The notes: generated from the sequence alone by a model not told the origin. Positions 11,120 to 30,256 are shown, counted from the first letter of the stretch. The stretch is 39,627 bases of DNA from Candidatus Komeilibacteria bacterium CG_4_10_14_0_2_um_filter_37_10 (GCA_002793075.1 PFPO01000085.1:1-39627); one strand, 5' to 3'. Program-made: numbers and translations.

Positions 11120-14083
11120 ATGCAGGGCAAATGGTTAAAACAAAAGAATATATTAGTGGCAGTTGTTTTTGGTTTGGCACTGATCACTTTTTTTGTTTTG
11201 TTTAATCCTAGCGCCTTTGCTGGTAATGTTGATTTGGGTTTGGATACCGCTGCCACGATCGGATTAGGAAATGTTGAATTGCAAACATTAATTGTGCGGA
11301 TTGTCCGAATCTTTTTAGGCTTCTTGGGGTTATTGGCAGTTATTATGATTCTCTATGGTGGTTATATTTGGATGACCGCTGGTGGTAGTCCCGACAAAAT
11401 AGAGAAAGCTAAGAAGATCTTACGGAATGCGGGTATTGGTTTATTGATAATCATTATGTCGTTTAGTATTGCGGAGTTTATTTTCCGGCAGCTTGGTTGG
11501 GCAACTGGCTTGGATCAAAATGGACGTTTTGATCAGTCTTATCAATATTCTGGCGGCATCGGCGGCGGGGCAATTAAATCTCATTATCCACCGCGTGGCG
11601 CTATTGGTGTAGCTCGCAATGTTAGTATTGTGGTCACCTTTAAAGAAAAAATTGATCGCTCCACTATTTATAATCAATCCACCGGTTATTTAATCAGCAA
11701 CGTCGTTATTGAGGACGCTGATGGTAACCAAAATTCGTCAGTCAAAGCAATCACCGAAGATGATAACACTTTTGTTTTGACGTCAGATAATTATCTGGGT
11801 CGTGATGATACAAATGTGGTCTACACCGTTACTTTAACTTCCGATATTCTCAAGCAAAATGGCGATCCAGTCTTTGGCGCCACCGGTAGCTACGAATGGC
11901 AATTTACCGTCTCCACGATTATTGATCTAACGCCACCTAAGGTGGTGGGAGTTTTTCCTATTCCCGATAAAACATACGCTCGTAATGCTGTGGTACAAAT
12001 TAATTTCAATGAACCGATTAATCCGTTAAGTGCCAGTGGTGAAGTAGCTAATGGTTTTAATAAGATAGTGGCTCAGGCCTTGGGTGTTAGTACGCCGATT
12101 AATGGTACCTTTAATATTGTTAATCAGTATCGGACAATAGAATTTATTACCAGCGATTTATGCGGTCGTAACTCCTGCGGTTATGATGTTTTTTGTTTAC
12201 CGGGCGATAAAGATATTACAGTTTTAATCAAGGCAGCAACGCTGGCTACTCCTGGTAAACCAACGGCTGTTATTCCCTTTAACGGTGTTGTTGATATGGC
12301 CAATAATTCTCTTGACGGCAATAGTAATGGACAAGCAGAAGGCGAGACAATAGATAATTATCAATGGCAGTTCAAGACCAGTGGTTTGATTGATTTAAAT
12401 CCACCCTCAGTAACTGGCGTGACGCCCGGTGTTTCCACAGTTAATGTTGGTACCAGATCTTTGGTTAAATCAAATTTCAATAAATTAATGATGTATTCCA
12501 CGCTGAATGCGGAAAATATCATGATTGATCAAAATACTTATTATTGGATTACTAGTTTTAATGATCCCGCAGCTTTTACCGTGAGTGTAATAAACCACGA
12601 CGAGTTTACTGAGTTCACTCCCTACCATCCATTGATTACTAATAAATGTATGGACGTTTTTCAGAACTGTTTTAATCCCGCAGCTGGCCCTTCTGATTTC
12701 AAAGTCGGTGGCACTGACGCTAATGTCGGGTGGTTAGCGGGTACGATTTCTGGTAATGCCAATTTAACTCAAGTACCTGGTCAGTTACGAATCAACATGT
12801 CAGAAATAGAAACACCTTATGTTTGGATCGCCAGGTCAAACCTCAATGAAGTAGTTAGAGTAAGTACTCAAACCGGAGCTGTTAGTGCGCCGGTAGCAGT
12901 TGGCACTAATCCGTCACGCACCTCTGTTGATGGTAGCAGTAGGGTTTGGATAGCGAATCGTGACTCTTGTAATGTTACAGTTTTATATACTGATAGTAGT
13001 GGTAATATCAAATATGTTAAGGGTACACAAGTAAATAGTACCTTTTTGACAACACCAGCCTGTGGGCCACGTGGCGTAGCAGTTGATGCTGATGGCAACA
13101 TTTGGATTGCAGGTGGTAGCCAAATAGTTAAGTTAAGTGGTCAAGACGCTGATTTGGGAACAAAATTAGCGACCGTCGCACCAAACGCTGGTAGTTTTGC
13201 TTATGGCGCGGCCATAGATAAGTTCAATAGACTTTGGGTAGTCTTTAGAGATAGTGGTAAGGCAGCAGTTATTGACGTTGGTACTGGTACGGTTTTAGGA
13301 ACGCCACAAGTGGGTGATGTTGGACAGTTATACGGATTAGCGACTGACCCTGAGGGAAATATTTGGGTGGATAATTCTTGGGGATCTGCCACTGTTTCTA
13401 AAGTTGACGGCAATAGCGCTAATTTTACTTTTGTTAAATATAATACTGGCGGCGCTACGCCAAGGGGCGTAGCTATGGATAAAGAAGGAAATATTTGGGT
13501 AACAAATTGGAATTCAAATAATGTTACTAAGTTAAAACAGGACGGCACTATATTAAATATTTTTACTAGCGGCAGTGGTCCACTGGGCATTTCCGGTGAC
13601 GCTGGCGGACACATGTGGGTGGTTAATTATAATGGCGGTGGACCAGCTCAAAAATACACTACCTGCAGTGGTGGGACAGTCACAAAATTTAATATTGCTG
13701 ACGGATCAGTAGATGGCACTTATTGCGTTGGTGGTCAGCCCTATACCTATAGTGATATGACGGGCTTTGGCTTTAAGAGCGTAGTTCACTCTTTAGTTAC
13801 TGGACAATGGTTATCACCGGTACTGGATATGCATCAACCAGTAGTTGTGACTGGATTATTTGCCCACGGTGATTTTCCCGTAGGTACTGCCGTAGAGCTA
13901 GAAGGACGATCAGCAACTACTCAGGCCGGTCTGGCAACAGCCACTTGGCAAAAGGCGCAAGCCGATGGTTTAGTGCAATTAACGCAGGGCAGTTGGTTAC
14001 AAATCAGAGCAACGCTCAAAACTAGCCGCGTTGATCAAACGCCATCTTTAAATAATATAAGTATTAGTATTAGTGGCCAATAA
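11120..14083 (+). CDS. T4SS-pilin-like N-terminus fused to Ig-like domains and a seven-blade propeller
   Basis: This is a predicted surface protein of 987 residues. A signal peptide (about 8-34, ending near SAFAG) is followed by a VirB2/TrbC-like two-helix segment (about 52-85 and 97-120) with the LYGGYIWMTAGG turn. Three Big_5-like Ig domains follow, each opening with a P-x-x-G or DLTPPKV-type strand (about 150-270, 272-415 and 425-545). A propeller of seven W-rich blades of the NHL/streptogramin-lyase type then spans about 560-850, and a beta-rich tail ends the protein. The first about 120 residues match those of the giant next gene. No ribosome-binding site is obvious. It begins 38 bases after yqeY and probably shares its transcript. 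Two membrane helices would leave the long tail outside. Adhesion or display is inference. Confidence 0.85.
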   Translation: MQGKWLKQKNILVAVVFGLALITFFVLFNPSAFAGNVDLGLDTAATIGLGNVELQTLIVRIVRIFLGFLGLLAVIMILYGGYIWMTAGGSPDKIEKAKKILRNAGIGLLIIIMSFSIAEFIFRQLGWATGLDQNGRFDQSYQYSGGIGGGAIKSHYPPRGAIGVARNVSIVVTFKEKIDRSTIYNQSTGYLISNVVIEDADGNQNSSVKAITEDDNTFVLTSDNYLGRDDTNVVYTVTLTSDILKQNGDPVFGATGSYEWQFTVSTIIDLTPPKVVGVFPIPDKTYARNAVVQINFNEPINPLSASGEVANGFNKIVAQALGVSTPINGTFNIVNQYRTIEFITSDLCGRNSCGYDVFCLPGDKDITVLIKAATLATPGKPTAVIPFNGVVDMANNSLDGNSNGQAEGETIDNYQWQFKTSGLIDLNPPSVTGVTPGVSTVNVGTRSLVKSNFNKLMMYSTLNAENIMIDQNTYYWITSFNDPAAFTVSVINHDEFTEFTPYHPLITNKCMDVFQNCFNPAAGPSDFKVGGTDANVGWLAGTISGNANLTQVPGQLRINMSEIETPYVWIARSNLNEVVRVSTQTGAVSAPVAVGTNPSRTSVDGSSRVWIANRDSCNVTVLYTDSSGNIKYVKGTQVNSTFLTTPACGPRGVAVDADGNIWIAGGSQIVKLSGQDADLGTKLATVAPNAGSFAYGAAIDKFNRLWVVFRDSGKAAVIDVGTGTVLGTPQVGDVGQLYGLATDPEGNIWVDNSWGSATVSKVDGNSANFTFVKYNTGGATPRGVAMDKEGNIWVTNWNSNNVTKLKQDGTILNIFTSGSGPLGISGDAGGHMWVVNYNGGGPAQKYTTCSGGTVTKFNIADGSVDGTYCVGGQPYTYSDMTGFGFKSVVHSLVTGQWLSPVLDMHQPVVVTGLFAHGDFPVGTAVELEGRSATTQAGLATATWQKAQADGLVQLTQGSWLQIRATLKTSRVDQTPSLNNISISISGQ
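12810..13660 (+). repeat. seven propeller-blade repeats inside the 987-residue protein
   Basis: Blades carry the cores VWIARSN, VWIANRD, IWIAGGS, LWVVFRD, IWVDNSW, IWVTNWN and MWVVNYN, each preceded by a G-x-A/V-x-D segment. Seven copies fit one closed beta-propeller. Confidence 0.8.
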
Positions 14084-14084
14084 C

Positions 14085-17000
14085 ATGAAAAGGATCAATT
14101 TACTAATATTAATAATCATTATCACAGCAATTCTTTGCCCGAGTTTTGTTTTGGCCGCCGTTGATTTGGGAGTCAATACAGCAGCTGACATTGGTTTGGG
14201 ACAGACAGATTTAAAAACGATTATTGTTAATATCATTAAGGTCCTTTTAGGTTTGTTAGGACTGGTTGCTATTATTTTTATTCTTTATGGTGGCTATACT
14301 TATTTAACTGCAGGTGGCAATGAAGAAAAAGTTACCAGAGCCCGGAAGATATTAATTAACGCCACCATCGGTTTAGTAGTTATTTTATCAGCCTTTGCCA
14401 TTACTAGTTTTATTTTTAGTACCTTAAGTGACGCCACGGGTTTAAATAATGGTATCAATAATAATGGTAATGTAAATTTACCACCAGGTGGTTCAACTAA
14501 TCTATATATTAATCAGTGGCAACCCAGTAATAATTCAGTGAATGCGCCACGCAACGTAGTTGTTTATGCTTTTTTTAATAAAACTCTTGATGCCACCTCA
14601 GTCACCGCTGATGATATTGTATTTAATAAGGAAGTAGGAACCGGTGGTGTTGCTTTTGACTTTCAAGTGATTGATCGTGCTATTAAGATTATCCAAAAAA
14701 ATCCATGTGATGTTGAAGGCGTGGAGTACTGTTTAGGTGAAACTACCGGTTATTATATACAAATAGTTAATAATATTAAATCAACAGACGGCAAGGATTT
14801 GATTTGTGATAATAATTTATATCCTTGCGAGTCACACTTCACAACGGGAACAATCATTGATTTAACTGGCCCGGTTTTAACTATTGTTCAGCCGGTTTCT
14901 TATAGTCAAATAGGTGATGGAGTTTTAACCAACGTCTTGGCTCAAGCCCAAGATGAAACAGGAATTTCTTACGTTAGTTTTCAAGCCAACGAGGTAAATA
15001 CCCAACCCGAAAGCATGGTAACTAGTGAGCCATATCAAGTGAATTGGCAAGTTAGCGGTTACCCAGAGGGCTCCACGGTTAATTTGCGAGCCCGGGCGGA
15101 AGATTTATGCGGCAATGTTAGTGAATCATCCGTTGTCCCAGTTATTATTAGACCAGCGCATTGTTTTAATCGCGTGCAAGACGAGAGCGAAACAGGAATT
15201 GATTGCGGTGACGGTTGTGGCGCTTGTTTGGGGGAGAGTTGTGATAGTAATCCCAGTCCATCGTGCGAACCAAATTTTAGTGCTTGTGCCGTCGGAAGTT
15301 GCGATCAGGTACAGTGTACTTGTCAACTTAACCCAGTGATTCTCAATATTTTGCCAGATAATGGTGCCGTTGGTAACTATATAACAATTTTTGGTCAAGG
15401 CTTTGGTTCTACTCCTGGTACGATAACTTTTTTGGGTACACCAGTGAGTGGTGATGAAAAAGTTGCCCCCTTAGCCGCTTGCATCAACGCTTGGTCAGAG
15501 ACACAAATTATTATTGAGCTACCGGTGGGAGCTGTGACTGGTGGTATTAAATTAGCCACCAGCGGTAATAGAATTGATACCACGCTTGATGAGTTGGGAT
15601 GGCAAGGAAATTTTACCGTCAACACGACAGTGCGTCCCGGCGTTTGTAATATTAATCCGGCTGCTGGCGTGGCTTTATCCGCTTCCGATTTATATGGTAA
15701 ACAATTCACTACGCAATCAACCGGCAATGCCGTGGTTACTGGCGGTGTTACCGCAGCTGTTAATGATTGGCATGATCAAAATATTGAATCAGTGATTCCT
15801 AATTTAAATCCTGGTTCAGTTTCCGTTCACGTCAAGGTTGCTGGGGAAAACAGTAATCCCGTTTTTTATCAAGTAGTGCCGGATATTCTCAGACCTAGCA
15901 TTGCTTATTTAGAGCCAGCTAATGGTCCCTTAAGTACCTACGTCACTATTCATGGCGATAATTTTGGTTATAATCCGGCTGATATTTTGGTCCGCTTTGT
16001 TAATTCCGGTAAGGGTTTAACTTATCCAGCGGATTTAGATTTCCCTACTGTTTGTGGTACAGGATTGATGAATAACAATGAAATATTAGTTAAAGTACCG
16101 CGGGTTATCGCTGGTGAGTTAGGAGCGTGGGAGGTTATTGTTGATCGCAGTAATAAGTTGAGCAATGCAGAGATATTTACCGTGGATACCACGCCATTAT
16201 TGTCAGGCATGTGTTTATTATCACCAGACAACGGACCAATTACCACACCAGTAGATATTTACGGTGAAGGATTTGGTTTAGTTAGTGGTTTGATAACTTT
16301 TGCTGCTGATAAAATAGCGGCGATCACCGAGTGGACTAATGCTCATACTAAAACAGCCGTACCAATAGGTAGCGTGACCGGTCCCGTAGCAGTAAAGTCT
16401 AGCAGTGGCGCTCAGGGTAATAGTATTAATTTCTCTGTGGGTGCTTGCGTGGCCAATAGTTGCGTACCAGGCAAAGAGTGCTGTGGTGATGGTATTTGTC
16501 GCACCACTGGCAATTGTGCTGCTAATACTGGCGCTGACGAATATAGTTGGAATTTTACTACTGGTCAGCACTTATCACCATTTATCGTCGAGCAAGTTTG
16601 GCCAGAATGTGAAGACGCCTGCATTAACGCAGTTCTGGGTATCAAGTTTTCTAACCCCTTGGATATGGATAGTATATCTGATATGAGTATCGGTGTTTAT
16701 CCTTGTACTGATGAGCAGTGTGATAATTTAGGACCGGAAATTCAATATCGTTACATTGAAAATGAGGTGGGTTATTATGATAGCGCTAATTATATTTTAA
16801 CCATCGTTCCCAAAAATAATTTACAAATTAATAAAAAATATCGTGCCGTAATTAAAACCGGTGAATTGTATTTAGTAAATACCGAGGGTGGTCTTATCGA
16901 GAATATTAATTATTCAACTAATGGTATTTTTGACGATGCTTATTCTTGGATTTTTAAGACGGCCGATCGTTTGTGTACCCTTAGTCGCGCTGGCGTGCAG

Positions 17001-20000
17001 CCCAATAACACTGTTTTATATCGAGCCGAAGAAACCGCGGATTTGACCGCTTATGCGTATAGTGATCCTGATAGTTGCTCACCAAGAGGTCAGCAACTAG
17101 ACGCCTATCAATTTGATTGGGATTGGAACTCAGTTCCAGCAAGTATTGTTACAGCGATGGAGAAAGATGTAGATAATAATGGTAAGCAAGATCCGATCGC
17201 TACGATGAAGTCAACCGGACCACCATTCCAAGATGGCGTTGCTAATGTTTCGGCAAGTACTCTAGGGCACAGTTCTACAGTACCAGTTAACGTTGATCTG
17301 GATATACCAGTAATAAGTGGTATTACTCCGGACAATGGCATGATCAGAAAGGATATTAAAACACTAGTCACTATCCTAGGAAATAATTTTGGCAATCTAC
17401 CCAACGACAGCTATGTTTTATTGGGCAATGATCGGACGGGGTACAATCGTGTTAAAATAGCTGATTGTACTAACAGTTGGTCCAATACTCAGATTATCAT
17501 TGAAATGCCCTTGAATACTTGGTCTGGCGATCGAGTGAAAGTTGTTAAAAATACTGGCAGCGCTATCTCGACACAAACGTTTACTGTGAATAATACTTTA
17601 CGACCAGCACTATGTTCTATTACGCCAACTTTTGGCACGGATGATAGCTTGGTAACGATCACTGGATACAATTTTGGCGATACTAAAGAGAATAGCACAG
17701 TCTATTTTGGTCAAAGAACAGTGGATAAAATAGATAGTTGGTCCAATACTTCTATCTCGGCCCGTGTTCCCGTGGGAGCCGACGGTGGCCCGGCTTATGT
17801 TAAAGTCTTAGGCACTGATTCCAATACTCTAAATTTTGATATGAGTCCTTATATTGATTATCTCAGTCCCGGCGCCGGACCAGTTCGGCAGTACGTGAGT
17901 ATTTACGGTGGTAACTTTGGCAATGGTTATGTGCAATTTGGTGACACCATTGCCAATATTGCTGATTGTGAAGGTAGCTGGACCAATAAACTAATTATTG
18001 CCGAGGTACCAGAATCCATGAAGACTGGTACTTACGATGTTAAAGTCGTGAAGAATGGTAAACTATATTTCCGCGATGATTTTAACATGACCGATATTGA
18101 TGTAAATAAATGGTCATTTAATAAAGTGGCTAATTGGCGAATTATTAATAACTCTATTTCCGTACAAAGTGCTACCGTTAAACAGATCATGTTTAGTAAA
18201 CAGGTAGTTACCAGTACCGACTATGTTTATAATGCTAAGATAAAACCAAACTATCCTTGGCCAGTTGGTTTAGTATTTAATTATGCCAATAATAATTATT
18301 ACTTATTGGAAATGGCCGAGTATCCCTATACCTCTATCTATACTAACCCGGTCACTGGTCAAACATCCACTTATGTTTATTCTGATTTTAAGGGTTTGCG
18401 TATTAAGAGAAATGGTGTGGTGATGGCAGCAACCGAGAGTTGGATCTTTTCCCGTAACCGCTGGTATGATTTACGCATTGAAAAAAGAGGTGGTTTGATT
18501 ACGGTGTTTATTGATGGCACCCAACGATTGTCTTTTCAAGACCCCACCCCGTTACCCAATGGTAGTGTTGGTTTGTATTCTGATTATGGTTATTATGTTG
18601 CCTTTGATAATGTGATAGTTGGCGCACTGGATACGAACAATATTGAAAGTAATAAAAAACCATTTTCGATTAATACCAATCCATTGGGCGTCAATCTCTG
18701 CGCCTTGGAACCTGATTATGGTAAAGCGGGAAACCAAACCTATTTACGAGGGGATAATTTTATTTCTTATAGTAATATAGTAGGTACCAAAAAAGGCGCA
18801 CAATTTAGCGCAGTTAGTGGTAGCTGTCTAGTGAACGACGGTCAGTATATAGGAAGTTGTTCTAATTTTACCGCTGACTATGCTTTTAATTTTCCCACTA
18901 CCGGTTATTATCGTTTATCAGCTAAAACTGATAACTACTCAGAAGATTTGACAGCCATAGACATTCAGCACCAGGTAAAAGTATATATTAATGGCGTCTA
19001 TCGAGCAGAGTTTTATAATTTAGCCAGCACACCAGATATCCAAACCGGCATTGTTGACTTAGGTCAGGTACCATCTGGTAATCATACTGTCAGATTGTCC
19101 TGGGTCAATGATTGGTGGGGTTATGGTCAAGGAATGCTGGGTGACTCTAATATGCGTATTCATCAAGTTGATATTTTGGGAGAGAGGAATGATAGTAAAC
19201 CAATTTTTACTAATAATGTACAGACGAGCGTTAATAGCTCGGGTATGAATTTTTTGAACACGACAATAACAGCAGCAGTTAAATCAGGACCAGTTAAAGT
19301 TTTAAAAAATGTGGTTTCCGGCAGAACGTGTATTGGTTTCCATATCGGCTCATGGTGTCCAGGTAATGTTTATCAAGATAGTATCATCACGGTGGAAAGT
19401 AATACGGTACCTTTCTACTATAACGCTGACGGCTGTATGTTTGCTACTGACTCATCAATGGATCCTAGCTTTCCACCGGTCGCAGTAGAAAATAGCCAAG
19501 CCGTAGGCACGCTAGCTACCGACGGTAAGTATGTTTATGGTAAAAGTTGGAGTAGCTATGATGAATATGATCGGGTGATTAATAAAATTGGCACCGGCTA
19601 TCAGGGCACAGTGGCAGGTAAAGATTATGGAGCGCTAGCAACCGTTACTGGATCTATTTCTTTAACTTATGCCCCAGATGGCTTTCTCTATAATGATGCT
19701 TGTTCCGGTAATAATTTAGAAAAAATTGATATAAATACAGGTCAGAAAACTACATTTACTGTGAGCGCTGGTTTGCTTAGTCGCGACTCGGGCGTAACTG
19801 GCTCAGGCTGTAAAATGATTACTTCTGATGGGCAGTACATGTATAGTTTGTCCTATGGCCACGACGGTTTTGTTTATAATGGTTTTAAAGTACGCGTCTA
19901 TGATCCAGCAAATGGTTGGTCGTTGGTGCGGGAGTGGGTATCTGGTCAAGATTCATTTTATACTGATGGTATTATTGCTGATGGTAAGTATGTTTATGCA

Positions 20001-23000
20001 CTAGCTTGGACTGGTACGGTTCGTAAAATGGATGTCACGACCGGTCAAATCATCGATCAGTGGTCAACTCACCAGGGACATCCGATCGGTCACGGTAGTA
20101 ACGTTATCTCTGGTCAGTATGATTGGATTAATAAAAAAGTTTATTTGGGCGATTTAGTAGAAACAGGTAGAGAAATTGGGCAGGGTATTTATCCAGCAAC
20201 CGGCCCAGCTTATTTGTATCGCTATAGTTGTAATACGGAAGATATTCCCACGAGCGATTTCTTTATCACCGAAGTAAAGCCAGTAACACCGCCGCCGGCA
20301 CCTCGTAACTCTTTGATTAGATTATTTTTTAATAATAATATCGAGCCAACATCGTTTGCTAACGAAGACGTATTAGTACAAAATATTACTCCTACGGAGC
20401 CAGAAGATTTAGCTTATACGGCTAATATCACGGGTAATTTATTGGAATTAACAGCCAATGCCACCTGTCCAGCACCGAATACTAATTTATTCTGTTGGCC
20501 CGCTTTGAGTACTATTAAAGTTACGACAAATGAAGGATCGATCATGGCAACCGATGCCAAGGCCTTGGGATGCTTCAACGGCAAGTGCACTCACCAGTTT
20601 GCAAGTTCCAATGCGATAGATTTAACTCCACCGAGTATCAGTATTATTGAACCAGTAAATAATGCTCGCATTACTCAGAACTCTGTAGTGCCAATTATTG
20701 CCGAGGCCACTGATGACTCAGGCGTTTCTTATGTCGAATTTTTTGTGGATGATCAGCAAAAAGCAAGAGTTGCTACAGCAATGGCTTTTGAAACAAATCG
20801 ATCGTACGAAACGGTTTATTATGGTACCAGAGCACTAAGCGCTGATTTTAATAAAGACGGTTATGAAGATTTAGCAATCTTTACTTACTGGGGGACTAGT
20901 TATGACATTCTGTTGAATAATGGTCAGGGTAAGTTTTTACCCAGAAAAAATTATAGTTTAGGCGAAAATTATATTTATTCTTCCCCAGTGATCGGTGATA
21001 TTAATAATGATGGCTATTCAGATATTATAATATTGTCCATGTGGAGTAATGGTAAATATGCTGTTATTTTGAATAAAGGAAATGGTCAATTCAAAGATCC
21101 TGTTTGGCATGAGACTGGTTTTAACTATACTTACAGAGCAGTTCTGGGTGATTTTGATAAAGATGGTGACTTAGATATGGCTATTTCTAATTATGCTTCA
21201 TATTACAGCTCTATTTCTGTGGCTCTTTATAAAAATACCAACGGTACTTTTAGTCAGTATCAGACAATTAACTATGGTAACACCTATAGTAACTACCCCC
21301 GGGGTATTGTGGCCACTGATTTTAATAACGATGGTTATGCTGATTTGGCAGTTTATAAAAATAGTTGGGACAGCAACGACAGTAAAAGATTATATATTTA
21401 TTTAAGTGCTGGCGCCTCTGGCCAAATGTTAGAGAAGTCAACATCTAAAAGAGCTGATTGGATTACTGATATGGTAGCTGGTGATTTTAATAATGACGGC
21501 AATCAAGATTTAGCTTATGTTTCTTATTATTATTATAATTATGGCCCAGGGGAAGTCCTGTATGGCAATGGCGATGGAACATTTGGCAATATTCAGGCAA
21601 TCAAGCAATATACAAGTAGCAGTTATAGCAACTATAATTATTTGCAGGCAATCAACGTTGATCATGACGGCGGTGACGATTTGGTTATTAATAATAGCTG
21701 GCCCTATCAAATAACTTACCTAATCAGTAATGGGTACACCTTTGCCAAAGAAAAAATAATTAGTACTGCTAGCGGATGGCACGAAAACTTTGCCTTTGTT
21801 GATGTTAATAATGATGAGTATTTAGATTTGGCTATACCAGATTATAGTGGATCAACACAAATTTTTGAGAATAATCAAGACACGACATTTGGTATTAATC
21901 GGATAATGAGCACACAGCCCGGAACCACTAGTTTTCAGGCGCAAGATTTAGATGGTGACAATATACCAGAATTAGTAGTTGCTGCCTCTAATCAATATTC
22001 CTATTATACCAACAGTGCCAATTCTTATATTTCTGTTTATCGGTCTAATTCAGTTAACAATGTGTCTTATCAAAATGTTTGGCAAAAAGCAGTGTCTATG
22101 AAATATGTTTCTGGCACGGGCACTTACACAACTACTGGTGCGCCGCAAGCTGTTGGTCTGTCTGATTTTAATAAGGATCAATATCAGGATATTGCAATTA
22201 GTAACTATCGTTGGGATGTTAGCGATCGCCAAGTTTATTTATCTACTGGTAAATTGAATTGGGCAACAGCAACTTATTTGCCAAGTCAGAGTAGTATTGG
22301 TATTTATGGACATATGGAAATTGGTGATTTAGATGGTGGCGGTGATCCTGATTTATTGTCTGTTAGTATGAAGAATAAATTTGAAGCCAAAATTAATAAT
22401 GGTCAAGGGGTGTTTACTGAGCAAATTATTGATCCCGGCACCATTGAGCAATGGTCAATAAATGCTATAGCTTGGGCTGATTTAAATGGTGATGGTAAGA
22501 GCGATTTGATTTATAGCAGTAATGATAGTTTGAATATAGTTTATAATAATAAGGGCCAATACGATTTTACGCAAAAAATTAGTTATATCGATGATTGGAT
22601 CCAGGATATTTTAACGGCTGATATAGATAATGACGGCGATCAGGATATTTTGGTATCAGCTAATGCTAATAGAGGTTGGCTTAGCGTTTATAAAAATATT
22701 GGCGGCGAATTCCAGTCCAGGAGAATACCATTAGCAAGCAATACCTATGCTTGGTCTGGTGCTACTGGTGATTTAAATAATGACGGATTAGTAGATTTTG
22801 TTAACCTGGATTCTAATGGCAAGGTATCAGTTTTATACAATCAGGGTAATGGTAATTTTGGTCAGGAGACAGTTTTGAAATTAATGAGTTATAGTTATGG
22901 CTATAGTGACGATAAAATTAAGATCGTTGATGTAAATCGTGATAACGTACCGGATGTTTTAGTTGTTGACTCGTCTGGTAGTGGTATTATCTTTGTTTAT

Positions 23001-26000
23001 AATAAGCAGGACACTAATTTGTACAGTTGGAATTGGGATACTGTTGGTTTAGCCAAGAATACGACCCATAAATTGCAAGCCAAGGCATATGACTTAGACA
23101 GCAATGCTAAATTAAGTTCGCCAATTAATGTTACTATCGTTGCTGAGCATTGTACTAATTTAGTGCAAGATGAGGATGAAACTGGCATTGATTGTGGTGG
23201 GGTAGATTGTCTAGTTTGTCCGCAAAGTGGAGATTTCCATATTGTATCTAAACGCCCGGAAGGTAGCGGGGTGTGTACGAATGAAGCAGTACGAGTTACT
23301 TTTAACAAACCTATGGATCGCGTTAGTATTAGTAATAGCTCTGTTCAGGTTCGCTGCCGCGGTCGTGATTGTCCTGTTGGTGGCGTAGTATCTGGTACTT
23401 TTAGCTTTACTGATTTGCAAGACAGCGCCCCAAAAACTTTTATTTTTTATCCTAACCTACCAAATCAACAATGGTTACCATTTTTAGAATACCAAGTTTA
23501 TTTACTGGCTGGGCAAATTCGTAGTCTTGATGGTGATTTATTAGCACCGCAAAGTTGGCAATTTGATAGTTCTGACGCTCAGTGCGCTGTTGATAAAATT
23601 GAGCTGACGCCACCATCGGCAACCGTTGGTATCAATAAAGAAACAATATTTACTGCTTTGGTTAAAGATAAGTATGATAATAACTTAACGAACGCTTTAG
23701 AAAATTGGAGTAGTGCTGACGCAACTATCGCCAATATTAATCCAGCTATAATTAACGGTGATTTCTCAGACGATCTGACTGGTTGGAGTAGCTTTGTGAC
23801 CGGTACGAGTGAAGAGATTGTGGCCATTGAAGACCTTAATAATAATAAGTATTTAACAATTACTGGCAGTGGTAGAGCGGAAGAAGCGGAAGCATATATT
23901 ATTGCACAACAGTTTATAGATATTGAGCGGGATAGTAATTACGCCTTGTCTTTTAATGTCCGAGTGTCTGATGGTGTCAGGAAAGCCGGTGTAGAAATTT
24001 GGTATGTTAACGATGAGAACAATCGTAAAGAAAGATTATTTGAATCGGATTTTATTGGTCAGACTGATTGGTCGTATCATAGTTTTAATTTTGATATCAG
24101 CTCGGGGAAAATAGAGTTAAATTGTTATTTGCAAGATCAAGATGATCATAACCCAACATATATCTCTTGTGATAACCTCCAATTAATTAGGGGCGATAGT
24201 AATATTAATGAAATTCAATACTTCCAAGGATTGTCTGAGGGTCAAACTAAGGCGCAGGCCAGAATTGGCAATATAGTTGGTGATGCTGATCTTAATGTTG
24301 AGTTAGCACCTGACGCGCCGCGGATTTTGGAAGAACCCAGCTGTAGTAATGGCAAAATTCAAAGTCCGTCACCGCAACGTAACGCTACGAATGTTTGTCG
24401 GCAAGCAGCAGTTTCCGCTTTGTTTACTCAAGACCTGGATCCGACAACGGTTAATAATGCCAATATTTATTTAGCTAGAGAGCAAGAATCTGCATGTCAG
24501 TCTGGTTTTTTACCCTGGCAAAAAATTAAGAATTTATGGCGCATGTTATTAAAAAATACTACGTTAAATTCCTTAGCAGCAGTTGATAAGTGGTGGTGTC
24601 CAGTAAGTGGTAGGGTTACTCCATTCTATCAAAATGATAAGGTCAGGGGATTTATTTTTAGTCCGGATACAAATTTGGGAAATAGTGTTCATTATCGGAT
24701 GACTGTCACCACCGGCGTGAAGAGTATCACTGGGGTACCAGTGGCGGTTAATGATAGTTGGAGTTTTGCTACGGCTACTGATGCTGACTGTGCCGTTGCT
24801 ACTGTTTCTGTGGAACCGGCAACTAAAGATGATTTGGCTATTGGCGTCAAACAAAATTACACATCAATGGCCTATACCAATCAATGTTTTTTGATTAATA
24901 GCAGTGGTCTTAATTGGAGCTGGAGTAGCGCTAATAGAACCATTGCTCAAGTTTTGCCGGCAGTAAACAATCAGGATTTTGAAGATGATGATGCGGGATT
25001 GAGTCCAACTATTTGGCAAGCAGCGGATAATTTAGAGAGTTGGCAAGTTGTCAGCGTTGGCGCTCCTCACGGTAATGCTGTGACGCAGACAGCACCCAAT
25101 GCCAAAAATTATTTATATCAAAATATTAGTGGTTTAATTCCCAATAAATCTTATCACATCACTGTTTGGTTTAAACGAACCGGACCAACTGATGCTGGTA
25201 CTGGTCAGATATGGTTTAATGATATAGCCATTCCTTTGACGGGCAACTATAATACTTGGAATCAAATTGATATCACTCGGCCAATTATGCAAGATGAACT
25301 GCAAATCAGATTGATAATAAATAGCGGTACAGTATATTTTGATGATATTAATATTGAGATGGTTGGTGATACGCAAGATGTTTTAAGTTTGACAGTTGGT
25401 CAAACAACGGTCAACGCTACAACGAGTGGAAAAAACGGTAGTGGTAGTTTAAAAGTTATTCCTGGTAATTGTGGCAATAATCGATTAGATCCCGAAGAAA
25501 TTTGCGATTTTGTGTTGGCGGAAGTTGGTGAAGTAGCTGTGTTTAATCCATCTGATTTAACCTGTGAAAAGAAAGGCTATAGTCGTGGCGGAACACTGCA
25601 ATGCACCTCAGCGTGTCAGTTAGATACTAATCTATGCTTGCCGGGTTTACCACCGATCAACGAATGTATTAATAAGGAAGTGTCAGTATTTTTCCGCGAT
25701 CGCGTTGATCCTAATAGTTTAAATAGCAACGGCACTGGTTTGACTTGTTTAAGTGGACCAGAAGAGGGAAATAGTTGTAGTGATCACGTTGATTGTCCAG
25801 ATAGTTATTGCGGGGTAGTAAATCCTGGTCGAGTAGAACTTAGAGAAATGGATATTAGTTGTCGCCCAGTGGTAAAATCGGATAGCGGTAATAGATTATT
25901 AACACTGTATGATCAGTTGCGTAATTTTATCAAAGTTAAAGTTTTACGAGCGGCAAATTGTAATGGCACGTCATTATCTATTCAAGTCTATGTAAATAGA

Positions 26001-27932
26001 ATTGGACCGTATAGTAAAATATATGTTTTGCCAGTCACTGGCCTGCAAGCTAATAAATATTACACCTTGACGGTGGCGGGTGGATCTGACGGTATTAGTT
26101 TTTTACCAACGGGATATATGGCAACAGATTATACTAGTTCCTTTAGTACTGGCTTGCAAACTTGCTTGTTGGACCGAGTAGAGATAACACCCAGTGCCTA
26201 TAGTTTTAATGAGGCTAATAAATCGGCGACTTTTTCCGCTACCGCCTATGATCAAAATAACAATGCTATCACCAACGCTTCTTATACTTGGAGCGTAGTT
26301 GGTAATGGTAGCTTGGTTAGTTTAGTTAACCCCAATAATAGATTTACAACACTCAGTGCTAGTGGCGCCGGTAATGGCGATATTACATTACATGTTAATG
26401 TTAATGCTGGCGCTTATGGTCAGGGACAAGCCGAGCTGCCAATAAATATTTTCTTATGTTCCTTGCCTTGGACTTATCAAGAAAGTAATTTTAATTTTAG
26501 TACTCGTTATTGTCGCACTCAAGATAAGAATATTGTTTATAATAGTAATATGGAAACAGATATTGATAGTAACAATATTGCTGATGGTTATGATCAATGG
26601 CACGGAGAATTACATAAGCCTCACGAGATCAAAATAGTAAGCGAGGCTAATAATAAATATTGGCAACTATATAGTCGGGGTGAAGACCAGGGAGGGGAAA
26701 TTGAAGAATATATGATCGTATCGCAAGCAATTATGAGTATAGTTCCAGGAAAAAAGTATACCTTTTCTAGCAAAATAAAAACAACAATGCCGGGTGCTAG
26801 TGGTAATTGTAATGACGGCTTTGCTTTGATGGAGCTGTGGGAACTGAATGCAAATGGTGTCAGAATACCCGGACAGAGTAGCAATACTACTATTTGTTCA
26901 ACAGCTGATTGGCAAACAAAAGCAATAACAAGACAGGTTAGTGCGAACGCTAAGGGTGTAGAAATAAATTGTGGTCTGCGTGTTTCAAGTAATGAAAATG
27001 CCATAACTGTAAGTTGTGATGATTGGCAACTAGAAGCTAATGATCAAGCGACTGTTTATCAGGCTGGCAATGTACTACCAGCATTAGAAATGAAGCCAGG
27101 GACAGTAATTGTGGGCGAGCTAACTAATAATTTATTTACTTTAAGTAAATATGGCATCTATGATGCTATTGGCGTTCGTACTTACGCCAACTATAATCAC
27201 TTCTCGCCCCAAGCCTGGTATCAGAACAATGCCAAGTATCAAGGGTCGCCAACTTCGCTGGCGGTTAATAAATACTCGGCTATTAACGAGGGTCGATCAA
27301 CCTATATTAATTTTGCCAATGTTGTTAATACCGATCAAGTTTACACTAATATTTTACTAATATCCTATACTGATCAAGCAAATACTATCACGCAAACAAT
27401 TTACAATGATTTTTATAAAAATCTCACATTTAATAGCAATTTGACAGATGTAAATAGTAGAGAAAAGTTGGCGCGGGATACTAAAAGATGGGAAGATATT
27501 TATCAATTAAGAACTTTATTGCAAAGTTATAAAAGTTTAAATAATAATTATCCAATTTTATTATCCGGTACTTATTTACCAAATACTTCCGTATCAGCTT
27601 GGGATTCGTGGCAATCTACTTTCGGTACTATCTTGGGCGGCACCGTACCGCAAGACCCAGTTAATACCCATCAGAATTGTCCAGCTGGTTATGATCCTAT
27701 CACTTGTTGGCGGCCAGCCACAGCAACTTATTATTGTAGTAATTCTCATGTTTATAAGTATAAATATGAAACAAACTCTTATAATATTTTTATGAATTTT
27801 GAATTTGATGGTCGTTATTGGATGCACGGTTTCAATAGCATTTATCCGCCAGATAGGACTTCTATAGGTAATAGTACTAGCTGTGAATCAGTCAAAATTA
27901 CTCCCACAACAATTAGCAATAATATTTATTAA
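14085..27932 (+). CDS. giant modular surface protein (about 4615 residues) with pilin-like N-terminus
   Basis: An ATG at 14085 lies one base after the previous stop and begins a signal peptide ending near VLAAVDLG. An in-frame GTG four codons earlier is less likely. Modules by DNA position are: pilin-like two-helix segment (14205-14430); Big_5-like (about 14505-14855); Ig plus Cys motif (14857-15230); four TIG (15331-16435); Big_5-like (16570-16970); three TIG (17296-18060); LamG-like jelly roll (18062-18640); an eighth TIG interrupted by a CBM-like domain (18687-19420); propeller (19440-20250); Big_5-like (20260-20620); Ig interrupted by 14 FG-GAP blades (20620-23140); three Big_5/Big_2/jelly-roll units (23225-27080); and a pseudopilin-like C-terminus (27440-27930). 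Many paired cysteines suggest disulfides outside the cell. No sortase motif is visible. A role in host attachment or display is inference. Confidence 0.88.
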   Translation: MKRINLLILIIIITAILCPSFVLAAVDLGVNTAADIGLGQTDLKTIIVNIIKVLLGLLGLVAIIFILYGGYTYLTAGGNEEKVTRARKILINATIGLVVILSAFAITSFIFSTLSDATGLNNGINNNGNVNLPPGGSTNLYINQWQPSNNSVNAPRNVVVYAFFNKTLDATSVTADDIVFNKEVGTGGVAFDFQVIDRAIKIIQKNPCDVEGVEYCLGETTGYYIQIVNNIKSTDGKDLICDNNLYPCESHFTTGTIIDLTGPVLTIVQPVSYSQIGDGVLTNVLAQAQDETGISYVSFQANEVNTQPESMVTSEPYQVNWQVSGYPEGSTVNLRARAEDLCGNVSESSVVPVIIRPAHCFNRVQDESETGIDCGDGCGACLGESCDSNPSPSCEPNFSACAVGSCDQVQCTCQLNPVILNILPDNGAVGNYITIFGQGFGSTPGTITFLGTPVSGDEKVAPLAACINAWSETQIIIELPVGAVTGGIKLATSGNRIDTTLDELGWQGNFTVNTTVRPGVCNINPAAGVALSASDLYGKQFTTQSTGNAVVTGGVTAAVNDWHDQNIESVIPNLNPGSVSVHVKVAGENSNPVFYQVVPDILRPSIAYLEPANGPLSTYVTIHGDNFGYNPADILVRFVNSGKGLTYPADLDFPTVCGTGLMNNNEILVKVPRVIAGELGAWEVIVDRSNKLSNAEIFTVDTTPLLSGMCLLSPDNGPITTPVDIYGEGFGLVSGLITFAADKIAAITEWTNAHTKTAVPIGSVTGPVAVKSSSGAQGNSINFSVGACVANSCVPGKECCGDGICRTTGNCAANTGADEYSWNFTTGQHLSPFIVEQVWPECEDACINAVLGIKFSNPLDMDSISDMSIGVYPCTDEQCDNLGPEIQYRYIENEVGYYDSANYILTIVPKNNLQINKKYRAVIKTGELYLVNTEGGLIENINYSTNGIFDDAYSWIFKTADRLCTLSRAGVQPNNTVLYRAEETADLTAYAYSDPDSCSPRGQQLDAYQFDWDWNSVPASIVTAMEKDVDNNGKQDPIATMKSTGPPFQDGVANVSASTLGHSSTVPVNVDLDIPVISGITPDNGMIRKDIKTLVTILGNNFGNLPNDSYVLLGNDRTGYNRVKIADCTNSWSNTQIIIEMPLNTWSGDRVKVVKNTGSAISTQTFTVNNTLRPALCSITPTFGTDDSLVTITGYNFGDTKENSTVYFGQRTVDKIDSWSNTSISARVPVGADGGPAYVKVLGTDSNTLNFDMSPYIDYLSPGAGPVRQYVSIYGGNFGNGYVQFGDTIANIADCEGSWTNKLIIAEVPESMKTGTYDVKVVKNGKLYFRDDFNMTDIDVNKWSFNKVANWRIINNSISVQSATVKQIMFSKQVVTSTDYVYNAKIKPNYPWPVGLVFNYANNNYYLLEMAEYPYTSIYTNPVTGQTSTYVYSDFKGLRIKRNGVVMAATESWIFSRNRWYDLRIEKRGGLITVFIDGTQRLSFQDPTPLPNGSVGLYSDYGYYVAFDNVIVGALDTNNIESNKKPFSINTNPLGVNLCALEPDYGKAGNQTYLRGDNFISYSNIVGTKKGAQFSAVSGSCLVNDGQYIGSCSNFTADYAFNFPTTGYYRLSAKTDNYSEDLTAIDIQHQVKVYINGVYRAEFYNLASTPDIQTGIVDLGQVPSGNHTVRLSWVNDWWGYGQGMLGDSNMRIHQVDILGERNDSKPIFTNNVQTSVNSSGMNFLNTTITAAVKSGPVKVLKNVVSGRTCIGFHIGSWCPGNVYQDSIITVESNTVPFYYNADGCMFATDSSMDPSFPPVAVENSQAVGTLATDGKYVYGKSWSSYDEYDRVINKIGTGYQGTVAGKDYGALATVTGSISLTYAPDGFLYNDACSGNNLEKIDINTGQKTTFTVSAGLLSRDSGVTGSGCKMITSDGQYMYSLSYGHDGFVYNGFKVRVYDPANGWSLVREWVSGQDSFYTDGIIADGKYVYALAWTGTVRKMDVTTGQIIDQWSTHQGHPIGHGSNVISGQYDWINKKVYLGDLVETGREIGQGIYPATGPAYLYRYSCNTEDIPTSDFFITEVKPVTPPPAPRNSLIRLFFNNNIEPTSFANEDVLVQNITPTEPEDLAYTANITGNLLELTANATCPAPNTNLFCWPALSTIKVTTNEGSIMATDAKALGCFNGKCTHQFASSNAIDLTPPSISIIEPVNNARITQNSVVPIIAEATDDSGVSYVEFFVDDQQKARVATAMAFETNRSYETVYYGTRALSADFNKDGYEDLAIFTYWGTSYDILLNNGQGKFLPRKNYSLGENYIYSSPVIGDINNDGYSDIIILSMWSNGKYAVILNKGNGQFKDPVWHETGFNYTYRAVLGDFDKDGDLDMAISNYASYYSSISVALYKNTNGTFSQYQTINYGNTYSNYPRGIVATDFNNDGYADLAVYKNSWDSNDSKRLYIYLSAGASGQMLEKSTSKRADWITDMVAGDFNNDGNQDLAYVSYYYYNYGPGEVLYGNGDGTFGNIQAIKQYTSSSYSNYNYLQAINVDHDGGDDLVINNSWPYQITYLISNGYTFAKEKIISTASGWHENFAFVDVNNDEYLDLAIPDYSGSTQIFENNQDTTFGINRIMSTQPGTTSFQAQDLDGDNIPELVVAASNQYSYYTNSANSYISVYRSNSVNNVSYQNVWQKAVSMKYVSGTGTYTTTGAPQAVGLSDFNKDQYQDIAISNYRWDVSDRQVYLSTGKLNWATATYLPSQSSIGIYGHMEIGDLDGGGDPDLLSVSMKNKFEAKINNGQGVFTEQIIDPGTIEQWSINAIAWADLNGDGKSDLIYSSNDSLNIVYNNKGQYDFTQKISYIDDWIQDILTADIDNDGDQDILVSANANRGWLSVYKNIGGEFQSRRIPLASNTYAWSGATGDLNNDGLVDFVNLDSNGKVSVLYNQGNGNFGQETVLKLMSYSYGYSDDKIKIVDVNRDNVPDVLVVDSSGSGIIFVYNKQDTNLYSWNWDTVGLAKNTTHKLQAKAYDLDSNAKLSSPINVTIVAEHCTNLVQDEDETGIDCGGVDCLVCPQSGDFHIVSKRPEGSGVCTNEAVRVTFNKPMDRVSISNSSVQVRCRGRDCPVGGVVSGTFSFTDLQDSAPKTFIFYPNLPNQQWLPFLEYQVYLLAGQIRSLDGDLLAPQSWQFDSSDAQCAVDKIELTPPSATVGINKETIFTALVKDKYDNNLTNALENWSSADATIANINPAIINGDFSDDLTGWSSFVTGTSEEIVAIEDLNNNKYLTITGSGRAEEAEAYIIAQQFIDIERDSNYALSFNVRVSDGVRKAGVEIWYVNDENNRKERLFESDFIGQTDWSYHSFNFDISSGKIELNCYLQDQDDHNPTYISCDNLQLIRGDSNINEIQYFQGLSEGQTKAQARIGNIVGDADLNVELAPDAPRILEEPSCSNGKIQSPSPQRNATNVCRQAAVSALFTQDLDPTTVNNANIYLAREQESACQSGFLPWQKIKNLWRMLLKNTTLNSLAAVDKWWCPVSGRVTPFYQNDKVRGFIFSPDTNLGNSVHYRMTVTTGVKSITGVPVAVNDSWSFATATDADCAVATVSVEPATKDDLAIGVKQNYTSMAYTNQCFLINSSGLNWSWSSANRTIAQVLPAVNNQDFEDDDAGLSPTIWQAADNLESWQVVSVGAPHGNAVTQTAPNAKNYLYQNISGLIPNKSYHITVWFKRTGPTDAGTGQIWFNDIAIPLTGNYNTWNQIDITRPIMQDELQIRLIINSGTVYFDDINIEMVGDTQDVLSLTVGQTTVNATTSGKNGSGSLKVIPGNCGNNRLDPEEICDFVLAEVGEVAVFNPSDLTCEKKGYSRGGTLQCTSACQLDTNLCLPGLPPINECINKEVSVFFRDRVDPNSLNSNGTGLTCLSGPEEGNSCSDHVDCPDSYCGVVNPGRVELREMDISCRPVVKSDSGNRLLTLYDQLRNFIKVKVLRAANCNGTSLSIQVYVNRIGPYSKIYVLPVTGLQANKYYTLTVAGGSDGISFLPTGYMATDYTSSFSTGLQTCLLDRVEITPSAYSFNEANKSATFSATAYDQNNNAITNASYTWSVVGNGSLVSLVNPNNRFTTLSASGAGNGDITLHVNVNAGAYGQGQAELPINIFLCSLPWTYQESNFNFSTRYCRTQDKNIVYNSNMETDIDSNNIADGYDQWHGELHKPHEIKIVSEANNKYWQLYSRGEDQGGEIEEYMIVSQAIMSIVPGKKYTFSSKIKTTMPGASGNCNDGFALMELWELNANGVRIPGQSSNTTICSTADWQTKAITRQVSANAKGVEINCGLRVSSNENAITVSCDDWQLEANDQATVYQAGNVLPALEMKPGTVIVGELTNNLFTLSKYGIYDAIGVRTYANYNHFSPQAWYQNNAKYQGSPTSLAVNKYSAINEGRSTYINFANVVNTDQVYTNILLISYTDQANTITQTIYNDFYKNLTFNSNLTDVNSREKLARDTKRWEDIYQLRTLLQSYKSLNNNYPILLSGTYLPNTSVSAWDSWQSTFGTILGGTVPQDPVNTHQNCPAGYDPITCWRPATATYYCSNSHVYKYKYETNSYNIFMNFEFDGRYWMHGFNSIYPPDRTSIGNSTSCESVKITPTTISNNIY
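15331..18060 (+). repeat. IPT/TIG domain array
   Basis: Seven copies share the pattern I-x-P-x-x-G-x-x-x-x-x-I-x-G-x-x-F-G. Examples are ILPDNGAVGNYITIFGQGFG, LEPANGPLSTYVTIHGDNFG and ITPTFGTDDSLVTITGYNFG. Each ends in a strand with a V-P or L-P-V-G turn. They occur in a group of four and a group of three, split by a Cys-rich piece, a Big_5-like domain and an Ig-like stretch. An eighth copy follows at 18687. Confidence 0.85.
20825..23000 (+). repeat. 14 FG-GAP/VCBS blade repeats (two predicted 7-blade propellers)
   Basis: Fourteen calcium-loop cores of the D-x-N-x-D-G-x-x-D type can be counted, including DFNKDGYEDLAI, DINNDGYSDIII, DFDKDGDLDMAI, DLNGDGKSDLIY and DLNNDGLVDFVN. This is the family seen in integrin alpha heads and bacterial surface propellers. 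Some loops have lost acidic residues (DHDGGDD, DGGGDPD) and may not bind calcium. Confidence 0.88.
23225..27080 (+). repeat. three long Big_5 / Big_2 / jelly-roll super-repeats
   Basis: Units begin near 23225, 24330 and 25650, each with a C-x-N-E or C-x-x-A start to a Big_5-like domain. Each continues into a Big_2-like domain (cores VDKIELTPPSATV, VATVSVEPATK and LDRVEITPSAYSF) and a CBM4/9-like jelly roll (NGDFSDDLTGW, NQDFEDDDAG and NSNMETDIDSN). In units one and two the jelly roll lies inside the Big_2 domain, at the same place. In unit three it follows an intact Big_2. Domain names rest on pattern recognition, not on a profile search. Confidence 0.65.
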
Positions 27933-28674: not shown

Positions 28675-28684
28675 ATTATTGAGC

Positions 28685-30256
28685 ATGGAGGAAAATAAAA
28701 ACACAACATCAGAACAACCGAACAACCAACAATTTAGCGGTTATGCTCTTAATTTTCAAGATGAACAAAAAACGCAAGGCAATGACAAGATTAAGAGTTG
28801 GTTGATTATTGGTAGTATTATTTTGTTAGCTATTTTGGTAATAGCCGGTATTATTTTTTTTGTTTATAATTTACGGCGCCAAGCGCCGGCAAGCAGTGAT
28901 TCGACTAATCAGCAAGCCGAACAATCAGCAGATCAAAAAAAAGGCGAGCCAGTACCAAAGCAGGATTTAAGTACCCCGGAATTGCGTGATGAGCAACGAT
29001 TGAAAGATGTTACTAATATCCGCAATGCTTTGGGGTCTTATTATCAAGACCATCAAGCTTACCCCGATGTGTTAGAAGATTTGGTCAGTAAGTATTTAGA
29101 AATACTTCCCAATAATCCTAAACCAGGTGGTGAAAATTATGTCTATCGTCCTCAGCAAAACAATCAAGACTATAAACTATCATTTACTCTGGAGCGCGGA
29201 GCGCAGATGGATAGTATTAATTTGGCCAGCGGCAGATATCAGGCCACGACCAGTGGTTTTGAACCAATTACTAGCGAACAAAAAGCGACTGGTACGGAGG
29301 ATAGTAAGACCAATGAGAGAGTTGAAATTATTAATGGTTTAGACAGTGATAAAGATGGCGTCAGTGATATTGAGGAGAATATTTATCATAGTAAATCAGC
29401 CACTATGGACACTGATCAAGATGGCTATACCGATGGTACAGAAATTACCAGTTTTTATGATCCCGCTAAGGGCCAAGGTGCGCTACTTATTGATTCTAAT
29501 ACCGTTAATAAATATGATAATAAACGATGGGGCTATACCGTAGTCTATCCTGCGGAATGGACGGTTAAAGCCCTAACTGAAGATAATCAGGAAGTAATAT
29601 TTAATTCTGCTACTAGTGAATATTTTCAGATTATTATTCAACCCAATCCCGTATCGCTATCCGCGCGCGCCTGGTATCAGAAATTTAATCCCACCATTGA
29701 CAATAGTCAGCTGATTGATTTATCAATCAATGGTTTAATTGGCGTGCAAACCAAAGATGGCTTAAATACTTATTTAACTGTTGGCAGTAATATTTATTTA
29801 TTGATTTATAACTTAGGTACGACCAATCAATTGAATTATAAAATAACTTATCAGTTATTTTTGAAAAGTTTTGCCATCCGTCAAGATTTTTTGGCTGAAC
29901 AAGTTCGTTATGATGAAAAAAGAGAGCAAGATGTGACTGCTATTCATCAAGGATTATTAAAATATATGAATAGTCAATTATCCTTACCATCAACGATAGA
30001 TAATAAAACAGAAACCAGTCAACAAATAGGAACGCTGGTTGATGGTTGCCAAAGCAGTTGTCATGAGTTGACTTTGGAAAATCAGTGCGTTGATTTGAGT
30101 AGCTTCCTGGCACCGATGGGTCTAACGCAGTTACCCAAGGACCCTAGTGGCGGTTCGGATGCGAAAACTGGTTATTATCTGAATTTACAAGCGGATGGTT
30201 CTCTGTTAGTTGGTTCCTGTCAAAGTACTACCAAGTTAATAGAAGTAAAAAATTAA
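28685..30256 (+). CDS. membrane protein with two pseudopilin-like modules, TSP3 repeats and a PsbP-like domain
   Basis: The start is placed at ATG 28685 (523 residues). An in-frame TTG two codons earlier is less likely. A short cytoplasmic part is followed by one membrane helix (about 39-62). A pseudopilin-like module (about 100-175) has DEQRLKDVTNIRNALGSYYQ and LPNNPK. Next come TSP3 repeats (about 219-260, DSDKDGVSD and DTDQDGYTD). A PsbP-like domain (about 278-400) opens RWGYTVVYPAEW. A second pseudopilin-like module (about 408-520) has KREQDVTAIHQGLLKYMNS, paired cysteines and LPKDPSGG. The stop overlaps the ybeY start by one base. Parts resemble proteins common in candidate-phylum bacteria. 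No enzyme motif is seen. Confidence 0.82.
   Translation: MEENKNTTSEQPNNQQFSGYALNFQDEQKTQGNDKIKSWLIIGSIILLAILVIAGIIFFVYNLRRQAPASSDSTNQQAEQSADQKKGEPVPKQDLSTPELRDEQRLKDVTNIRNALGSYYQDHQAYPDVLEDLVSKYLEILPNNPKPGGENYVYRPQQNNQDYKLSFTLERGAQMDSINLASGRYQATTSGFEPITSEQKATGTEDSKTNERVEIINGLDSDKDGVSDIEENIYHSKSATMDTDQDGYTDGTEITSFYDPAKGQGALLIDSNTVNKYDNKRWGYTVVYPAEWTVKALTEDNQEVIFNSATSEYFQIIIQPNPVSLSARAWYQKFNPTIDNSQLIDLSINGLIGVQTKDGLNTYLTVGSNIYLLIYNLGTTNQLNYKITYQLFLKSFAIRQDFLAEQVRYDEKREQDVTAIHQGLLKYMNSQLSLPSTIDNKTETSQQIGTLVDGCQSSCHELTLENQCVDLSSFLAPMGLTQLPKDPSGGSDAKTGYYLNLQADGSLLVGSCQSTTKLIEVKN

Follow-up and report, generated by a model that had tools for sequence, protein, structure and literature searches.

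In the integrin beta subunit, the betaI domain is inserted in a loop of the immunoglobulin (Ig)-like hybrid domain. Here we describe a comparable arrangement in a giant predicted surface protein of Candidatus Komeilibacteria bacterium CG_4_10_14_0_2_um_filter_37_10 (GCA_002793075.1), encoded within the 39,627-nucleotide stretch PFPO01000085.1:1-39627 (the window), in which a pair of FG-GAP propellers appears to lie inside a Big_7 Ig-like domain. In both proteins, a ligand-binding insert occupies a loop of an Ig-like host within a surface adhesion protein (both roles being putative in the giant), with its ends joining neighbouring strands. The integrin insert is one Rossmann-type domain, present in one subunit of the pair, whereas in the giant a Big_7 domain of bacterial type would hold two propellers, and the two systems have no sequence relationship.

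About 20% of the multidomain proteins in the ECOD catalogue contain nested (A1-B-A2) insertions; inserted domains have close termini, and the insert is smaller than its host in 77% of events, with medians of 115 and 199 residues, respectively (PMC13114784). The giant departs from this pattern, with about 745 residues (two domains) in a host of about 95 residues, and all six of the inserts described here (A-F) are larger than their hosts. The Big_7/X1 structures 3pdd, 9x9r and 9kvu belong to the same Ig-like family as the propeller host (profile E-values down to 6e-13) and are uninterrupted; where the insertion of the giant lies, they have a short C'-E loop. Closely spaced pairs of seven-repeat FG-GAP sets have been reported in bacterial sequences, and these tandem integrin-type propellers share with the giant FG-GAP cores with calcium loops; in the portions of that paper reached by a term search, no propeller pair inserted inside another domain was found (PMC3192720). 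Psathyrella velutina lectin (PVL) and integrin alpha-V have propellers of the same sequence superfamily, each a single, un-nested, seven-blade propeller, whereas the pair in the giant is nested. Similarly large predicted surface proteins are found in a different lineage, where the giant membrane proteins of Vampirococcus lugosii (up to 4163 residues) are thought to serve in host recognition and attachment; the portions of the source covered by a term search gave no nested insertions in them (PMC8080830). Domain insertion itself is already known; what is unusual is an insert eight times the size of its host, and the repetition of such events in one gene, with many independent insertions for which the before and after states are both visible. 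We found no earlier description in the open papers that could be searched, a partial coverage made mostly by term search.

An interrupted Big_7 domain

The giant is encoded by a single frame that is open throughout, as the initial annotation had stated, and contains two copies of a Big_7 (PF17957) Ig domain, each followed by a cysteine motif (Table 1). The first copy is intact. The second is represented by two segments that match complementary parts of the family profile, on either side of the propellers: the N-terminal half (E 7e-13) and the C-terminal half, which when searched alone gives an E-value of 0.11. When the halves are rejoined, the match extends over the whole profile (positions 1-70 of 70) at 68 bits (E 1.2e-18, with a cut-off of 24.1), a higher score than the 36 bits of the intact copy, and the rejoined domain is 41% identical to copy 1 over 118 columns (E 3e-28). 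A class-wide Ig profile of 14 rows, with copy 1 among them and copy 2 excluded, likewise matches copy 2 in two pieces (positions 1-66, 1.1e-14, and 58-126, 1.2e-22). The class consensus is retained in both halves, with its NWDTxGL and AYDxDxN segments. Across the class, the Ig domain is followed by the motif C-x-N-x3-D/E-x2-E-T-G-x-D-C-G, for which Pfam reported no family.

The cut lies between the strands VEFYVDG and xxxWDT, where length varies (the C'-E loop, with strand letters assigned from the family pattern), both in the solved Big_7/X1 relatives and in the 14 class sequences. A paralogue and relatives have a single uninterrupted domain to which the host halves are homologous, as expected of a nested A1-B-A2 insertion. 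Profile coverage gives no second complete Ig domain beside the propellers, so the pair of separate domains that the initial annotation had named as grounds for rejecting its proposal was not found. One Ig domain, cut between strands C/C' and E, is the sole reading that fits the profile coverage and is supported on these grounds. Considered as a matter of sequence, we regard the nesting as very probably correct. The proposals of an insertion inside an Ig domain, of an intact copy in the same protein and of a split between neighbouring strands were therefore all borne out, with small shifts in the starts of copy 1 (14856, residue 262, rather than 14857) and copy 2 (20616, residue 2182, rather than 20620).

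The FG-GAP propeller pair

The insert (insertion C) comprises about 745 residues, and the spacer from VEFFVDD to YSWNWDT is 756 residues, slightly longer than the 720 or so first proposed; the accompanying count of 14 FG-GAP cores stands. These are at residues 2258, 2309, 2360, 2416, 2471, 2530, 2577, 2625, 2698, 2752, 2803, 2850, 2900 and 2953, and the insert matches FG-GAP_3 with an E-value of 6e-62 (Pfam). From the core counts, and from the pairing of first half with first half in a related protein (see below), we infer a 7+7 partition, with seven repeats per propeller. As read from the sequence, each seven-core set has seven F-type outer strands, including one ahead of the first core, and would resemble a ring closed by an N-terminal strand; such closure would bring the two ends of each ring together, as loop insertion requires. 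DxDxDG-type calcium loops are present in most cores, with a canonical position lost in several (for example 2530, 2625, 2698 and 2953).

AlphaFold models of 869 residues, from two runs with few homologous rows for the Ig domain, have a propeller fold, with strands at predicted local distance difference test (pLDDT) scores of 80-94 over much of both sets. The best Foldseek matches were double- and single-propeller proteins, and a PDB profile search returned a secreted esterase, cartilage acidic protein 1, PVL and integrin alpha-V. An integrin identity was rejected, as Pfam finds no integrin-specific domain in the giant. The best matches in contig searches (Acidobacteria, Bacteroidota and others) were generic FG-GAP repeats without the Big_7 Ig domain of the giant. 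Elsewhere in the giant, a stretch of about 275 residues (19425-20250, KYVYGKSWSSYDEYDRVINKIG...) looks like a further propeller of another type, for which Pfam returned nothing.

Distribution and history of the split copy

The gene order signal peptidase - hisS - smaller T4SS_pilin protein - giant - TSP3 protein - ftsA is widely kept (the name 'signal peptidase' being a reading from sequence), which makes the giants of class members positional orthologues. An Ig-profile match is present in 262 of the 381 class genomes. The syntenic giants that were fetched each carry one uninterrupted or divergent Ig domain, mostly within residues 220-510, and no second copy; the partial Ig matches in G103, G224, G193, G176 and others are divergent or short, and are not split by propellers. 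A two-row segment profile search of the 36 genomes of the order available for searching recovered the split copy in two, the source genome and G002, from another genus of the same family. The G002 protein has the same nested arrangement at 36% identity, with 14 cores (12 found by pattern and two read by eye), and a third family member, G001, has a single intact Ig domain and no split copy. The search for orthologues that the initial annotation had suggested thus came out in its favour: those at the conserved position have one uninterrupted Ig domain, and in the closest relative that possesses copy 2 the insertion is present too.

Between the source and G002, propeller 1 matches propeller 1 best and propeller 2 matches propeller 2 best, so the pair was inherited as a unit and predates the split of the two genera. 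Counted on the alignment, identity is about 40% and 59% for the Ig halves and 29-33% for the propellers; the split host, with its halves the better conserved, is therefore still under selection. In a tree of the Ig copies, those of the family, copies 1 and 2 alike, form one cluster (90/88) whose internal support is modest, which argues that the module was probably duplicated within the lineage before the propellers entered. A 3562-residue protein of G040 (L044:4141-14826), with 19 FG-GAP cores in two clusters, was set aside as not orthologous, lacking T4SS_pilin and Big_7.

Further insertions in the giant, its paralogue and the class

The propellers are one of at least six whole-domain insertions into backbone loops of the giant, at least five of which the initial annotation, confined to the propellers, had missed. 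Together, insertions A-F make up 33% of the protein, and the hosts of A, B, D, E and F are each uninterrupted in G001 or G002. The TIG host of insertion A covers profile positions 6-72 when cut and 5-83 of 84 when rejoined, and is contiguous in G001 (1278-1368, 2.2e-15), as is the rejoined host of insertion B (1370-1472, 1.7e-15); both insertions are common to the source and G002. Insertion D matches CBM_4_9 at 39.5 bits, and its rejoined host matches Big_2 over positions 2-66 of 79, under the cut-off, and is contiguous in G002 (3342-3428, 8.6e-12). For insertion E, neither host nor insert has a Pfam family above the cut-off, and the rejoined host is contiguous in G002 (2170-2256, 5.7e-8). The G002 alignment jumps from the first half of the D host directly to the second half of the E host, which suggests that a Big_2-like host unit has probably also been duplicated in the source protein. 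The rejoined host of insertion F is contiguous in G001 (1885-1960, 2.2e-9) and in more distant class members, with the weakly CBM-like insert F being similar to insert D (9e-6).

Two further cases lie outside the giant of the source. A LamG domain (insertion G) sits within 228 residues private to G002, where the source (9e-27) and G001 are contiguous. In the upstream T4SS_pilin paralogue, insertion H is a Vgb/NHL-like propeller (Vgb_lyase 5e-14, Pfam), and the site is empty in the G002 orthologue, which aligns on both sides and joins at 574|577. A search for target-site-like repeats at the insertion edges gave none clearly beyond chance, the longest, a 9-nucleotide AT-rich match at D, equalling the shuffle maximum. 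The G+C content of the inserts is 35-40%, against 40% for the rest.

Similar cases were found elsewhere in the class by inspection, which is not a complete census; an all-against-all gap screen also lists between-domain changes and tandem duplications, and we claim only those cases read by eye. In G016, Big_5 is broken at position 72 of 105 by a LamG domain, and the C-terminal pilin-like region by a CBM_4_9; G013 has both hosts contiguous. G063 has a truncated Big_5 followed by CBM_4_9, and in G044 cysteine-rich DUF4215-like repeats interrupt a region that corresponds to a weak Big_5 in G051. A Pfam match to Toxin_R_bind_N in L167 does not denote a toxin, being a ConA-fold cross-match that scores below Laminin_G_3.

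Features of the giant locus

The N-terminal T4SS_pilin region of the giant (PF18895, residues 44-114, E 4e-11, Pfam) includes a pilin-type hydrophobic region; we take it as a probable membrane anchor rather than as a pilin. The C-terminus (27459-27932, REKLARDTKRWEDIYQLRTLLQSYKSLNNNYPIL...) resembles a type IV/II pilin globular domain and is kept in the class, with a similar stretch also present in the downstream gene at 28679-30256. The size of the source genome (0.98 Mb) and its domain content suggest a Patescibacterium. The Ig-type domain is also present in open frames of 14,266 residues (G096:C1:502078-502452) and 26,099 residues (G288:C8:141114-141458).

Table 1. Coordinates in the window of the giant reading frame, its two Big_7 copies and the proposed insertions.
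Feature	Position	Strand	Details
Insertion H, Vgb-like propeller	12818..13792	+	About 325 residues; inside C-terminal beta domain of upstream T4SS_pilin paralogue (reading frame 11120-14083)
Giant surface-protein reading frame	14073..27932	+	4619 residues counted from GTG; likelier start is ATG at 14085
Big_7 Ig copy 1, intact	14856..15146	+	Residues 262-358; 36.1 bits, profile 1-65/70
Cysteine motif CFNRVQDESETGIDCG after copy 1	15162..15236	+	At residue 364; conserved across class
Insertion A, ConA-like domain	18063..18641	+	193 residues; inside TIG; host 17853-18062 and 18642-18695
Insertion B, 137-residue module	18783..19193	+	Inside next TIG-like domain; host 18696-18782 and 19194-19424
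Big_7 copy 2, N-terminal half	20616..20774	+	Residues 2182-2234; strands A, B, C, C'; Big_7 positions 1-49, 49.4 bits
Insertion C, first seven FG-GAP cores (propeller 1)	20775..21899	+	
Insertion C, second seven FG-GAP cores (propeller 2)	21900..23009	+	
Big_7 copy 2, C-terminal half	23010..23132	+	Residues 2980-3020; strands E, F, G; Big_7 positions 48-70
Cysteine motif CTNLVQDEDETGIDCG after copy 2	23151..23219	+	At residue 3027
Insertion D, CBM_4_9 domain	23751..24197	+	Inside Big_2-like; host 23589-23750 and 24198-24305
Insertion E, weakly CBM-like module	24966..25367	+	Inside Big_2-like; host 24795-24965 and 25368-25463
Insertion F, CBM_4_9-like module	26532..27071	+	Inside class-wide conserved C-terminal domain; host 26457-26531 and 27072-27224

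Discussion

Most likely, a Big_5-Big_7-Cys module was first duplicated in the family, and the propellers entered copy 2 afterwards. The N-terminal T4SS_pilin region may fix the giant in the cell membrane, with the TIG, Big_5, Big_7 and Big_2 domains forming a stalk that extends away from the cell. The inserted modules would each fold independently and, with their two ends close together, could be suspended from a loop as side arms, past which the Ig backbone stays continuous. The propellers, given the DxDxDG-type calcium loops in most blades and the kinship with PVL and integrin alpha, would most likely have glycans or proteins of other cells or surfaces as ligands and would need calcium for rigidity, and the gain, loss or swap of modules at tolerant loops could alter adhesion without breaking the stalk. 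Binding and attachment are suggested by the domain families of the inserts and by the attachment role proposed for giant proteins in another candidate-phyla lineage (PMC8080830). We put the probability of this explanation as a whole, including the function in binding and adhesion, at about 0.6.

Several observations weigh against it. AlphaFold confidence for the Ig halves is low, with few homologous rows: pLDDT was about 33 without Ig rows and about 42-75 when the halves of copy 1 were supplied as separate rows (when copy 1 was aligned across the insert by MAFFT, its N-terminal half was misplaced). The latter run placed three strands before the insert and four after it, at low to middling confidence. 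No relatives of the Ig domain of the giant were found in the related loci searched, and searches of viral contigs gave no useful Ig rows, so the joining of the halves into one fold is a proposal drawn from sequence. Propeller 2 has stretches with pLDDT below 50 (around residues 2640-2765). Among the other insertions, the Pfam match of the host is weak for D and absent for B, E and F, which rest on alignment to relatives.

The explanation that best survives beside a binding role is that the insertion folds and acts mainly as a spacer or structural element, contributing length, stiffness or protease resistance. Several cores lack a canonical calcium-loop position, and binding is read from domain families, as this would allow. 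The recurrent ConA/LamG, CBM_4_9, FG-GAP and Vgb-like inserts at many sites, whose families are known above all for binding carbohydrates or other ligands, nevertheless exceed what a change in length needs, and growth of a spacer would be expected to give tandem Ig copies; we consider a mainly structural role unlikely. The weak AlphaFold confidence in the Ig domain would also suit propellers that are nested in sequence between halves that no longer form one fold, and that persist as relic half-domains serving as linkers. This we find improbable, as both halves keep the class consensus and are conserved above the inserts between two genera, and as rejoined copy 2 outscores intact copy 1 on Big_7. 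Less probable again is the reverse order of events, with the propeller-bearing Ig domain ancestral and the insert lost by the others: the tree puts copy 2 next to a group formed by the family's three copy-1 sequences, which would allow for a loss of copy 2 in G001, yet only two genera of one family have the copy with the insert, no split copy is found in the other order genomes searched, and the fetched class members are uninterrupted. An assembly chimera or misread frame, conceivable in a draft genome of 97 contigs, is refuted by an open frame through the whole segment and by the independently assembled G002 protein.

With nested insertion followed by binding as the preferred explanation, we tentatively suggest, at rather less than even odds, that the giant beside ftsA in this class is an evolvable recognition scaffold. 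It would diversify as lectin-like and propeller cassettes are nested into, and exchanged at, a few tolerant loops of an Ig stalk that is otherwise conserved, so that corresponding sites hold a different set of binding heads in each species. In most cases only the outcome of a domain insertion can be observed; in this gene family, uninterrupted copies within the protein, orthologues with the site empty and sites that are filled all occur together, so that the growth of the giant can be read stepwise. The 8:1 ratio of insert to host tests the size of insert that an Ig loop tolerates. If the inserts are binding heads, their differing sets would supply candidates, open to testing, for the recognition targets of these bacteria, which have small genomes and are probably attached to hosts.

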